Notes under the pieces: generated by a model
The model's database searches: none
What the model was told of the DNA's origin: nothing
What the model saw: only the letters and a program-made list of their open reading frames with translations
Part shown: positions 9,064 through 26,427 of the stretch, in pieces
Layout: every line of letters starts with the position of its first letter
How positions within the stretch are numbered: position 1 is the stretch's first letter
Program-made: the position numbers and the translations under genes
Source of the DNA: a bacterium
GTDB lineage: Bacteria; Patescibacteriota; Patescibacteriia; UBA9934
Direction of reading: 5' to 3'
NCBI GenBank assembly: GCA_027592325.1
Contig: JAQCKO010000010.1
Location: 1 to 38,997 of the forward strand
DNA length: 38,997 nt

Positions 9064-9387
9064 TTAATGACGGCGACGTTTAGCGGCTTTCATGCGGCCA
9101 ATTAATCGATCGTGTATGAGTTCGCCAATGAGCGAAATCCAGATAAGGACAATTGGAATGGTGAGGATCATGTACACCATGGTGAGGATTTTTGAAGCAT
9201 CATGTGACGGGACAACATCGCCATAACCAACCGTGGTTACTGTTGCTAGCACAAAATACAGGCTATCAATAAAAAGCCACCCTTCAAGCGCCGTGAATGC
9301 GCATGCGCCAATAACGACAAGAACCGCGAGAAGAAACGCTAGCTGCAAAACACGCGGATGAAACACAATTCGAGCAGACCTCCACAT
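9064..9387 (-). CDS. 2-TM potassium ion channel (Ion_trans_2)
   Basis: Selectivity filter TVGYGDVVPSH between two TM helices. ATG at 9387 (MWRSAR) preferred over the track start at 9405. Confidence 0.88.
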   Translation of the reverse strand: MWRSARIVFHPRVLQLAFLLAVLVVIGACAFTALEGWLFIDSLYFVLATVTTVGYGDVVPSHDASKILTMVYMILTIPIVLIWISLIGELIHDRLIGRMKAAKRRRH

Positions 9388-9395
9388 ATGAAAAA

Positions 9396-9425
9396 AGTAT
9401 AGCACGAGTATAAGCGGACTCTCAA
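9396..9425 (-). promoter_or_regulatory. Promoter of the K+ channel / Kef pair
   Basis: Minus strand TTGAGA-18 nt-TATACT; predicted start almost at the ATG (leaderless-like). Confidence 0.55.
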
Positions 9426-9669
9426 CGGACTGGACACGGGTGGCATCGTGTACATCGGCCAGCTCGTCCGGTGCACGGAAGCAGCACTGCTAAAGGTCAG
9501 AAATTTTGGTCGCAGAACCCTCTTGGAGATCGAGAGTTTCGTCGCGCTCCACGACCTGACCTTGGGCATGATCGTCCCTGGCAGTCAGGTCGCGGCGCAT
9601 GCGCATTTCAGACTGCCAGACCGCATGGTGACCTGCATGCGTAGCAGCGGTGTTCGCATCGAACAATAG
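9403..9669 (+). other. RNA polymerase alpha C-terminal-domain-like reading frame, no convincing start codon
   Basis: HEYKRTLNGLDTGGIVYIGQLVRCTEAALLKVRNFGRRTLLEIESFVALHDLTLGM resembles alpha-CTD (RSANCL..IxxIGDLVxRTExELLKxxNxGxKSLxEIxxxLxxxGLxLGM). The track ORF starts at GTG 9448, inside the domain; the frame is closed by TAG at 9400-9402. Confidence 0.65.
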
Positions 9670-9690
9670 TTGGGCGCGGACCAACTCTTG

Positions 9691-9717
9691 ACCCGGGCCA
9701 ATCCCCTGGGTTTTTCT
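9691..9717 (+). terminator. Rho-independent terminator
   Basis: ACCCGGG-ccaatcc-CCTGGGT followed by TTTTTCTT. Confidence 0.7.
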
Positions 9718-9757
9718 TATTGTCAGACCACCTTTTCTTTGCTAGTCTTCTATCATT

Positions 9758-21398: not shown

Positions 21399-23915
21399 TT
21401 ATTTCAAATAAGGCCTTAGGTACTTCCCAGTATGGCTGGTCGTTGATTTGAGTGCAATCTCTTCTGGCGTTCCTTCCGCAACAATGGTTCCTCCTCCTGA
21501 ACCACCCTCTGGTCCAAGATCAACAATCCAATCCGCTGTCTTAATAACGTCAAGGTTATGTTCAATAACAAGGATAGAATTCCCTTTATCGACAAGTTGA
21601 TGCAACACTTCAAGAAGTTTACGTATATCTTCAAAATGGAGACCCGTTGTTGGCTCATCAAGTAAATATAACGTGCGACCAGTGCTTCGTTTCGCAAGCT
21701 CGGTGGCAAGCTTGACACGCTGTGCCTCCCCTCCTGAAAGTGTTGGCGCCGGCTGGCCTAGCTTCAAGTAACCAAGACCAACATCATTGAGCGTTTCGAT
21801 TTTATTGTTGATTGACGGAATATCTTTGAAAAACTCCACCGCATATTCAACTGTCATCTCAAGCACATCGTAAATCGATTTATCCTTCCACATCACCTCA
21901 AGCGTCTCACGATTAAACCGCCGTCCCTTACAAACATCACATTCAACATAGACCGTTGGTAGGAAGTGCATTTCAATAGCATTTTGTCCATGTCCTTCAC
22001 AATTCTCACATCGCCCCCCTGGACGATTGAAGCTAAAACGACCAGTTTTATATCCGCGAAAACGTGCTTCATCTGTCGAGGCAAATAGGTCGCGAATCGG
22101 TGTCCACGCCCCCGTATATGTTGCAGGATTTGAGCGGCTGCTTCGACCTATCGGCGACTGGTCCATCAAAATCATCTTGTCGATATACGATACCCCTCGC
22201 ACTTCTTTATGCGCGCCCGGTTCAGCCTTTGTCCCACTCAATTTCTTCGCGATCGTTTTGTACAAAATATCGTGCATGAGCGTTGATTTTCCTGAACCAG
22301 ATACACCTGTCACGCAAACGAAACGTCGAAGCGGAAATGAAGCGTTCACGTTTTTGAGATTATGCTCCGTTGCCCCAATAACTTCGATGACATCCTTTCC
22401 TGGCTTTCGACGCTCTTTCGGCACAGGTATTTTTGCATCTCCGCGCATATACGCGGCTGTCTTCGAAGTCTCATGCGCAAAAATCGCCGGAACTTCGCCT
22501 GCGGCAATGACAGATCCTCCATGTACTCCCGCACCAGGACCAATTTCAATCATATAGTCGCTCCGGCGAATAGTATCTTCATCATGCTCAACGACAAGTA
22601 CGGTATTTCCTAAATCACGCAATCCTTCAAGCGTCTTAATAAGCTGATCATTATCCCTTTGATGCAGCCCAATGGTCGGCTCGTCAAGGACATATAACGC
22701 CCCAACAAGCCGCGATCCAACTTGTGAAGCGAGCCGAATGCGCTGTGCCTCACCACCAGAAAGCGATCCAGCTTTTCGATCAAGCGTCAAATAGTGTAAC
22801 CCAACATCGAGCAAAAATGTGAGTCTATGCTCGATTTCTTTCAGAATCGTTCCGGCAATTTCCTGCTGACGTTCGGAAAGTTCAACATCTAAAATATACG
22901 ACGTTGCCCCCTGAATGGTCTCGCTGACGAGATCAACAATATTCTTATCGCCTATTTTGACAGCAAGAGCTTCTTTGCGAAGACGTTTACCTTCACAGAC
23001 ACCACAAATCGTTTCAGAAAAGAGTTCTTCGGTTCCAAGACCCGTACAGGCTTTGCAGTATCCATAAGGACTATTAAACGAAAAAAGTCGAGGCTCAATT
23101 TCTGGAAATGAAAACCCGCAAGAAACACAGCTAAATTTTGTTGAGAATAACCGTTCATCGCCATGTGGAAAGACGATTTGTGCAATGTCACCACCCCGAT
23201 CAACAGCCGTTTCAAGTGCCTCAGATAGTCGTTGCAATGCATCTTTATTTGCATCACGTAGCGCCGTCGCGGGGATGGTATCAATAACAACTTCAATTGT
23301 GTGCTGCTTGTAGCGCGAAAGCTCAATTTTTTCACTGAGTCGATACATGGTGCCGTTTACGCGTACTTTGGCAAAGCCAGAATTATACAAATCGTAAAGC
23401 AATTGGTAATAATTCCCTTTTCTACCGCGCACAATTGGCGCGAGAATAGTCACCCCTTCTTTTTCAACAGACGGATATTTTGCAAGCTGCGCCAGAATTT
23501 GATCGACAATTTCGTCAATGCTAAGGCGTTCAATCTTCTCTCCACAATCAGGACAATGGGGAATACCAATGCGGGCGTAGAGCACGCGAAGATAATCGTA
23601 AATCTCGGTCACCGTCGCAACGGTTGAGCGTGGGTTGCGAGAATGGGCTTTTTGATCTATCGATATAGCTGGCGAGAGTCCATCAATTTCATCGACATCA
23701 GGTTTTTGCATTTGACCCAAAAATTGTCGTGCGTATGCGGAAAGCGATTCAATATAACGGCGCTGTCCCTCTGCAAAAATCGTATCAAAAGCAAGAGAGG
23801 ACTTTCCTGAACCAGAAACCCCTGTAATACAAACAAGCTTATCGCGAGGAATTTCAAGACTAATATTTTTAAGATTGTGTTCTTTTGCACCTTTGATTGT
23901 GATGTTCTTTTTCAT
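21399..23915 (-). CDS. uvrA: Excinuclease ABC subunit A (compact)
   Basis: [50 protein letters not shown], two ABC signatures, zinc motifs. ATG at 23915 (MKKNITIKG) preferred. Confidence 0.97.
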
Positions 23916-23927
23916 ACACATGTATAT

Positions 23928-23956
23928 TTGATCGAATACTAGCAATATTTTACGAT
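23928..23956 (+). promoter_or_regulatory. Candidate promoter of a plus-strand unit in the uvrA-uvrB gap
   Basis: TTGATC-17 nt-TACGAT, followed by AGGAGG at 23965. Confidence 0.4.
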
Positions 23957-24343
23957 GGTAAGGCAGGAGGTTGCGTGACCAATGGCAAGTGAGCGACTTC
24001 GGTGTGGATATGGAGGACTGCGGGCACCTGTACGGCCTCCACCGTTCAAGTTCCCATCCGCCTTCACACCAACGAAGCCGTCACAACCGGCTCGCCCCGC
24101 AGGGGGTGTGCCGCGGGAACCGCTGACGTGGTCCCCAGTCGTAGCCGACGCCTAGCACAGTGTGCAAAGCAACGGAGACACTCGCAATGCTTATACGCGC
24201 TTTCGCAGGTAGAGTATCGCAAACCGGAGTTCAAGCTCCCAGGAGCTTCAAGCCGCGACGCATGGCCCTTCGCTCAACGATCGCGTGCATAAGTCTTGCA
24301 AAGCGTCAGTCCCGCATCTCAAACCTGCAAACATCGCCGCGGT

Positions 24344-24383
24344 CGCGGTCGAGGGCATTCCGAAAGGTTAGCTCTCGGCCGCG
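24344..24383. terminator. Strong GC hairpin closing the uvrA-uvrB intergenic unit
   Basis: CGCGGTCGAG ... CTCGGCCGCG, 10-bp stem with one G-U; weak U tract. Confidence 0.45.
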
Positions 24384-24390
24384 GCCATTT

Positions 24391-26427
24391 CTATTTTGCG
24401 CTATTCATACTCTTCAGCTCCTTCTCAAGCTCGTCAATTTCATCACGAAGCAATGCAGCCGTTTCAAAGTTCAAATTCGCCGCCGCCTTTTTCATCTCGC
24501 GTTGCTTCTCTTTGATCACCACCTTCAGCTCGTGCGGTTCTGCTTTCAGCTCGAGCTTCAGAATATTTTTTGTATCATTTTCATCCGTTTTCGATCCCAT
24601 CATTTCACGAATGTCGTGTATCTCGCGTTTTATTGACATTGGCGTAATCCCATGCTGTTCATTATGCGATACTTGAATGTTCCGGCGACGATCGGTTTCT
24701 TTGATTGCACGCTTCAGCGAACCCGTCATAACATCAGCATAAAGAATCACTTGCCCATTAATATGACGTGCAGCTCGTCCAATGGTCTGTACAAGCGATG
24801 TTTCTGAGCGCAAAAAACCTTCTTTGTCGGCATCAAGAATTGCAACAAGAGAAACTTCCGGGAGATCAAGTCCCTCACGAAGAAGGTTCACCCCAACAAT
24901 GACATCGTAAACACCCTTTCGTAAGTCGGAAAGAATTTCTATGCGCTCAATAGTTTTGATGTCAGAATGAATATACTGCACCGAGATGCCAAGATCATCA
25001 AGGAATTTCGTGAGGTCTTCGGCCATTTTTTTTGTAAGCGTTGTCACTAGCACACGCTCCCCACGTTGTATTCGCTCCTGTATACGCGGAATGAGGTCGT
25101 CAACCTGTCCCGGTATGCCGTCGACTTCCGTAACGGGATGAATCACAATTTCGGGGTCTACAAGACCTGTTGGGCGCACAATCTGCTCAACAATTTGATT
25201 TGACGCATCAAGTTCGTAATCAGCAGGCGTTGCGGAAACATACAATGTCTGACCTGTCACCCGTTCGAATTCATTATAGGTAAGCGGACGATTGTCTTTC
25301 GCAGATGGAAGGCGAAATCCATGATCAACAAGTGTTTGCTTACGAGCCTGATCGCCGTTATACATCGCGCGAACCTGCGGCACGGTCACATGTGATTCAT
25401 CAATAATCGTCAAAAAATCCTCTGGGAAATACGACATGAGCGTATGTCCCGGCTCACCAGCATTACGTCCTTCAAAATGCCTGGAATAATTTTCAATGCC
25501 ATTACAATACCCAATACTCCTAATCATTTCGAGGTCATAACGCGTTCTTCGCTTCAGCCGCTCATACTCAAGAACCTTCCCTTCTTTCTCAAGTTCCTTC
25601 AGTCGCTCATCGAGCTCCCACTCAATTGACTGTAAGGCTTTCTCAACCTTATCTGATCCAATGACATAATGCTTGGCAGGAAAGATCCAAATATCATTAA
25701 GTGTATCGAGTACACGCCGCGTTACAGGATCGAGTTTGAAGATTTCAACAAGTATTCCCTCTTCAAAAACCAGACGATACATGGCAATTTCTCCCCCACC
25801 GTCTCCTGAGCGCCCGGACATAGGAATAATTTCGATGACATCGCCCCGCGCGCGGAATTGACCGCGCTGTACCGCGCCTTGGTTTCGTTCGAAATACATC
25901 TCAATCAGCCGACGAATAAAGTCCGCGCGGTCTATGCGATCACCGACTTTGCCATAAAACACCGTATTCTCGTACTCCTTCGGTGAACCAAGGCCATAAA
26001 TACACGAAACCGAAGCGACAATAATCACATCACGGCGCGAAAGTAGGGCCTGAGTAGCTGCATGGCGAAGCCGATCAATTTCCTCATTAATTTGCGCCTC
26101 TTTTTCAATATACGTATCAGACCGCGGCATATACGCTTCCGGCTGATAGTAGTCATAATACGAGACGAAATACTCAACGGCACTATCGGGAAAAAACTGC
26201 CGAAATTCATTACAAAGCTGCGCGGCAAGTGTTTTATTATGGGCAATCACAAGCGTTGGCCGCTGCACTTGTTGAATGACATTTGCCATCGTAAATGTTT
26301 TCCCAGAACCTGTTACACCAATTAATGTCTGTTTTTCGTACCCGCGACTCAAACCATCCACAAGCCCTTCGATGGCTTTTGGCTGATCTCCTGCAGGTGC
26401 ATATGGCGCTTTAAGTGTGAATTTCAT
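24391..26427 (-). CDS. uvrB: Excinuclease ABC subunit B
   Basis: [26 protein letters not shown]..., [28 protein letters not shown]-terminal UVR motif. Confidence 0.97.

Follow-up and report, generated by a model that had tools for sequence, protein, structure and literature searches.

How does an RNA polymerase alpha C-terminal domain (alpha-CTD) come to be encoded in a reading frame that has no start codon, and is such a frame still a gene? The frame lies at positions 9403-9669 of the forward strand of the window, by which we mean the whole 38,997-nucleotide stretch of DNA that was analysed. It consists of 88 codons and a stop, and is bounded by an in-frame TAG upstream (9400-9402) and by the TAG at its end (9667-9669). 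Translation of 9301-9720 (+) reads ...HMKKV*HEYKRTLNGLDTGGIVYIGQLVRCTEAALLKVRNFGRRTLLEIESFVALHDLTLGMIVPGSQVAAHAHFRLPDRMVTCMRSSGVRIEQ*, and the frame includes the peptide stretch HEYKRTLNGLDTGG... Its sole listed start is GTG 9448, and an ATG at 9388 precedes the upstream TAG. The original prediction had described the in-frame string ATG AAA AAA GTA TAG and had noted that no usable start exists, and both descriptions held: we found none of seven known bacterial start codons (ATG, GTG, TTG, CTG, ATT, ATC or ATA) between TAG 9400-9402 and the CGG codon at 9415, which encodes the first conserved residue of the domain, and ahead of the conserved domain there is no start codon paired with a ribosome-binding site. 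As set out below, we consider the frame likely to be what remains of an accessory alpha-CTD gene after loss of its 5' part, and it is probably untranslated.

The encoded domain is a genuine alpha-CTD, far beyond chance. The helix-hairpin-helix core gave a significant match to the Pfam profile RNA_pol_A_CTD (PF03118; E 3.5e-11, 43.1 bits against a cut-off of 23.8). The match spans residues 5-45 of the frame (9415-9537, +), corresponding to profile positions 23-63 of 67, and begins exactly at the CGG codon; the first 22 profile positions, including the segment before helix 1, are missing. An AF2 model built with 26 relatives had a mean pLDDT of 78 (~87-93 over residues 11-60) and showed four helices in the alpha-CTD order, the first at residues 3-12. 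Its best matches among solved structures were all RNA polymerase alpha-CTDs (9zum, 3n4m and 1lb2), with a TM score of ~0.6 and 43-48% identity over ~50-60 aligned columns to the domains of Caulobacter (9zum) and E. coli. The frame shares with these domains the fold and the DNA-contact positions, numbered here as in E. coli alpha: R265, N268 and G296 align with R5, N8 and G36, K298 aligns with R38, so that a basic residue is kept, and S299 aligns with T39. As predicted, the R265 and N268 equivalents lie upstream of GTG 9448. Unlike the E. coli and Caulobacter domains, the frame has no attached alpha N-terminal domain (NTD), lacks the first 22 profile positions and a start, and adds an unrelated tail (after LGM: IVPGSQVAAHAHFRLPDRMVTCMRSSGVRIEQ, stop). 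The domain end and tail occupy 9541-9669 (+), where third-position GC is coding-like at 74%; for the tail, no relatives could be detected.

We asked whether the frame had been coding DNA. Openness taken alone is unremarkable and weak evidence, as the frame stays open in 8.6% of dinucleotide shuffles. However, its GC content is 58% (72% at third positions) against 46.6% for the window, and codon periodicity is strong through to the stop. Because the frame is both GC-rich and codon-periodic to its end, we conclude that it was coding DNA; it is possibly of foreign origin and acquired. No close orthologue was found, the best relatives being paralogues that are ~35-50% identical. A search of viral contigs yielded no relatives, and the matches in phage and plasmid records, where annotated, were ordinary rpoA genes, all at <60% identity. 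We dropped an RNA gene as a reading of the segment because a search of Rfam returned no match. The window holds further GC-rich stretches at 23911-24407 and 271-937, and the small frames tested within them had no Pfam match.

The missing start is explained by the divergent neighbour. Positions 9064-9387 (-), of which the start may differ a little, encode a two-TM potassium-type ion channel (PF07885, E 1.7e-19), and this gene adjoins a Na+/H+ antiporter gene both here and in four relatives. No alpha-CTD frame was detected beside the antiporter-channel pair in those four. The motif TGnTAYAMT occurs shortly before the start in all eight channel genes, namely the gene in the window and the seven homologues examined, where ~0.002 would be expected per region; in one homologue (L160) it falls just outside the scanned stretch and is visible in the upstream sequence. 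In the window this extended -10 element is TGCTATACT at 9404-9396 (-). The amber TAG at 9400-9402 (+) lies within the -10 hexamer TATACT of the minus strand and is the complement of its CTA, and ATG AAA AAA GTA (from 9388, +) corresponds to the channel leader TACTTTTTTCAT read on the opposite strand. ATG 9388 has no Shine-Dalgarno sequence ahead of it; the GACCTCC found upstream reflects, on the opposite strand, the GGAGG of the channel gene. A -35-like hexamer, TTGAGA (9420-9425, -), is located 18 nt from the -10 box and inside the R-T-L-N codons, although such hexamers were not above chance counts in the promoter scan, and on the plus strand the scan gave no promoter-like site within 370 bp upstream of the frame. 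We conclude that the ATG-to-amber string is the opposite strand of the channel promoter and leader and does not represent a damaged start, and that the frame has no start codon because the DNA 5' of ~9405 belongs to the channel gene. Stop readthrough and non-canonical initiation, which the original prediction had entertained, are accordingly unlikely.

Homology to the alpha-CTD stops abruptly at 9405-9414, beside the conserved channel promoter, as in a pseudogene fragment, and composition shifts sharply at the same place. When the alpha-CTD homologues were compared, the other strong hits in the order began at profile positions 2-15, against 23 here, and none started at the GTG. The simplest reading is a junction at ~9405-9414 that joins the channel promoter to the 3' end of another gene. 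A frameshift was rejected as the cause of the lost 5' part, since the other two frames upstream of 9415 contain no LELSV-like segment and the DNA there is that of the channel gene. We also observed a perfect 14-nt inverted repeat (9296-9309 and 9594-9607) around the palindrome GCGCATGCGC, which is present at only these two places in the window; at least two copies were seen in 1 of 100 shuffles. Inversion through this repeat was discarded as an explanation, since the channel gene, as it is now oriented, runs unbroken across one arm.

The original prediction had named a degraded rpoA fragment among its possibilities; a full-length rpoA was located on another contig. The genome's own rpoA (L095) is intact on contig C12 between rpsD and rplQ, within what we take, from reading the translations, to be the order rpsK, rpsD, rpoA, rplQ, rplM, rpsI. 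Its 274 codons end with an acidic tail, and a CTD is absent. Because this gene is complete and stops short of a CTD, like every other RpoA frame examined in the order, the frame at 9403-9669 is not a piece of it, and the frame is neither fused to nor beside an alpha NTD (PF01000). Thus, a degraded fragment is the best supported reading, but the genome's own rpoA is excluded as its source. RpoA was found in 58 of the 60 relatives sampled from the order, in frames of 230-300 codons and in one genome split in two pieces, and no alpha-CTD hit coincided with an RpoA frame among those examined. The tails of these proteins (L095 and L124-L153) are short, often acidic and free of an alpha-CTD. Across a sample of the phylum, the listed RpoA frames are for the most part longer, mainly 300-360 codons, and carry the CTD, whereas in the host's class 16 of 23 genomes had no alpha-CTD hit at all and the RpoA frames listed for its members measure 239-303 codons. 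Loss of the CTD has already been published for Parcubacteria (PMC8321222); the loss from RpoA itself is not new.

Where, then, could an alpha-CTD have come from? Proteins other than RpoA carry the domain in 26 of the 60 relatives of the order (E <= 0.01, the weakest hits being uncertain). Six are fusions to sigma70 region 4 (L002, L005, L009, L012, L013 and L115), which are 417-617 residues long and are possible DNA-binding regulators. One (L006) has the alpha-CTD at the end of FtsK, and others have uncharacterised N-terminal parts. The genome under study has one other copy, which is apparently intact (L020, contig C18) and whose structure model was too poor for use (mean pLDDT 54). Many of the accessory genes are GC-richer than their flanks, and the set is probably a loose and laterally acquired one. 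Like the frame, the accessory proteins of the order or class are sporadic and unlinked to rpoA, several are encoded by genes GC-richer than their surroundings, and the domain stands at or near the C-terminus (L020, L004, L162 and the fusions L005, L009, L012 and L013). These same seven have N-terminal parts and a complete start of the CTD, whereas the frame has neither.

At least two other accessory loci look disrupted. In L119 (1060-1662; genome G008, of the same family), the N-terminal part and the alpha-CTD are separated by an in-frame TAA located exactly at their boundary. L166 (1214-1737; genome G646) is a GC-rich island (58.6% against 45.4%) in which an apparent N-terminal frame of ~57 codons overlaps the alpha-CTD frame in a different frame, an arrangement that reflects either decay or frameshifting. 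As at 9403-9669, the alpha-CTD frame is cut off in both from an N-terminal coding part; in L119 and L166, however, that part is still present ahead of the domain, either cut by a stop codon or lying in a different frame, whereas here it is gone.

Our favoured model of a 5'-truncated remnant would run as follows. The source would have been an accessory gene for a protein with an alpha-CTD at its end, one of the sporadic and diverse genes of this kind in the order, and the copy would have arrived GC-richer than its surroundings, as if acquired. Recombination or insertion would then have joined the 3' end of the gene, at ~9405-9414, to DNA just upstream of the channel's extended -10 element, with loss of the N-terminal region and of the beginning of the CTD, namely the LELSV segment that precedes R265. 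We infer both the truncation by insertion or recombination and the absence of expression or translation. The frame would be a decaying member of the accessory set, its decay further advanced than in L119 and L166 because the N-terminal part is gone. Against this model, the 88 codons are still open, and codon periodicity and the DNA-contact residues are intact, features also compatible with a gene that is young or still in use; in addition, a terminator-like hairpin follows the frame.

We weighed several other explanations against the truncated remnant. Translation could begin at GTG 9448, which is in frame, has a weak GGTGG a few bases upstream and is followed by codon periodicity up to the stop; the product would be a 73-residue, truncated helix-hairpin-helix peptide that binds DNA or protein. 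Such a product would lack helix 1 (residues 3-12 of the model) and the R265 and N268 equivalents, no homologue was found to start at the equivalent position, and the scan gave no plus-strand promoter for it, so we consider it improbable. We regard as slightly less probable still a full alpha-CTD microprotein, translated from ATG 9388 through the amber codon or initiated at an unusual start, that supplies the missing CTD of RpoA in trans. The CTD-less RpoA of this genome, the preserved fold and contact residues, and the TAA of L119 at the equivalent junction between N-terminal part and alpha-CTD would suit it. However, its ATG and TAG lie opposite a conserved promoter of the other strand, it has no Shine-Dalgarno sequence at ATG 9388 and no known start codon before R265, the disrupted relatives are broken in differing ways, and an apparently intact alpha-CTD protein (L020) is encoded elsewhere in the genome. 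The least probable of the readings extends this idea to the whole class: the alpha-CTD would have left RpoA to act in trans on dispersed accessory proteins, some with sigma70 region 4, and the frame would be a minimal and unusually initiated microprotein of that system.

An assembly or sequencing error, with the true 5' part missing or a chimeric junction, could also give rise to the sharp change in composition, and the draft genome, of which the window is a single contig, is in 21 contigs. Yet both flanks are coherent, with the channel gene and its conserved promoter on one side and the start of a PGA_cap gene on the other, a chimera would need an insert of only ~300 bp, and a similar GC-rich alpha-CTD piece is present in another genome (L166). 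Further, since the DNA upstream is that of the channel gene, correcting one miscalled base would still leave the frame without a start region. We consider an error about as unlikely as initiation at the GTG. The segment might instead have been retained as non-coding DNA that serves as a promoter or terminator of the flanking genes, given the -35-like TTGAGA inside the frame and a hairpin with a U tract at 9690-9712. The original prediction had placed a terminator at 9691, and a hairpin with an 8-bp stem and a U-rich tail does exist there (9690-9712, +), but it is no better than chance (1 found against 1.1 expected in shuffles; fold z-score 0.24). The TTGAGA likewise did not exceed chance, Rfam gave no match, and non-coding retention leaves 88 open codons with alpha-CTD homology unexplained. 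We therefore give it as little credence as the microprotein, although it may coexist with a remnant.

Taken together, the frame itself is probably ordinary and needs no unusual biology, and its missing start has an ordinary explanation that is visible only through the channel homologues. The frame is interesting mainly because the polymerase of the host's lineage is without the alpha-CTD module, while ~40% of the sampled genomes of the order retain, on unrelated, sporadic proteins, alpha-CTD domains in which the DNA-contact residues are intact. This dispersal of the domain on accessory proteins, together with its absence from RpoA, is a better lead than the fragment. The accessory alpha-CTDs could replace the missing CTD at promoters, or they could be DNA-binding modules on mobile genes, a distinction that bears on how transcription works in bacteria with tiny genomes.
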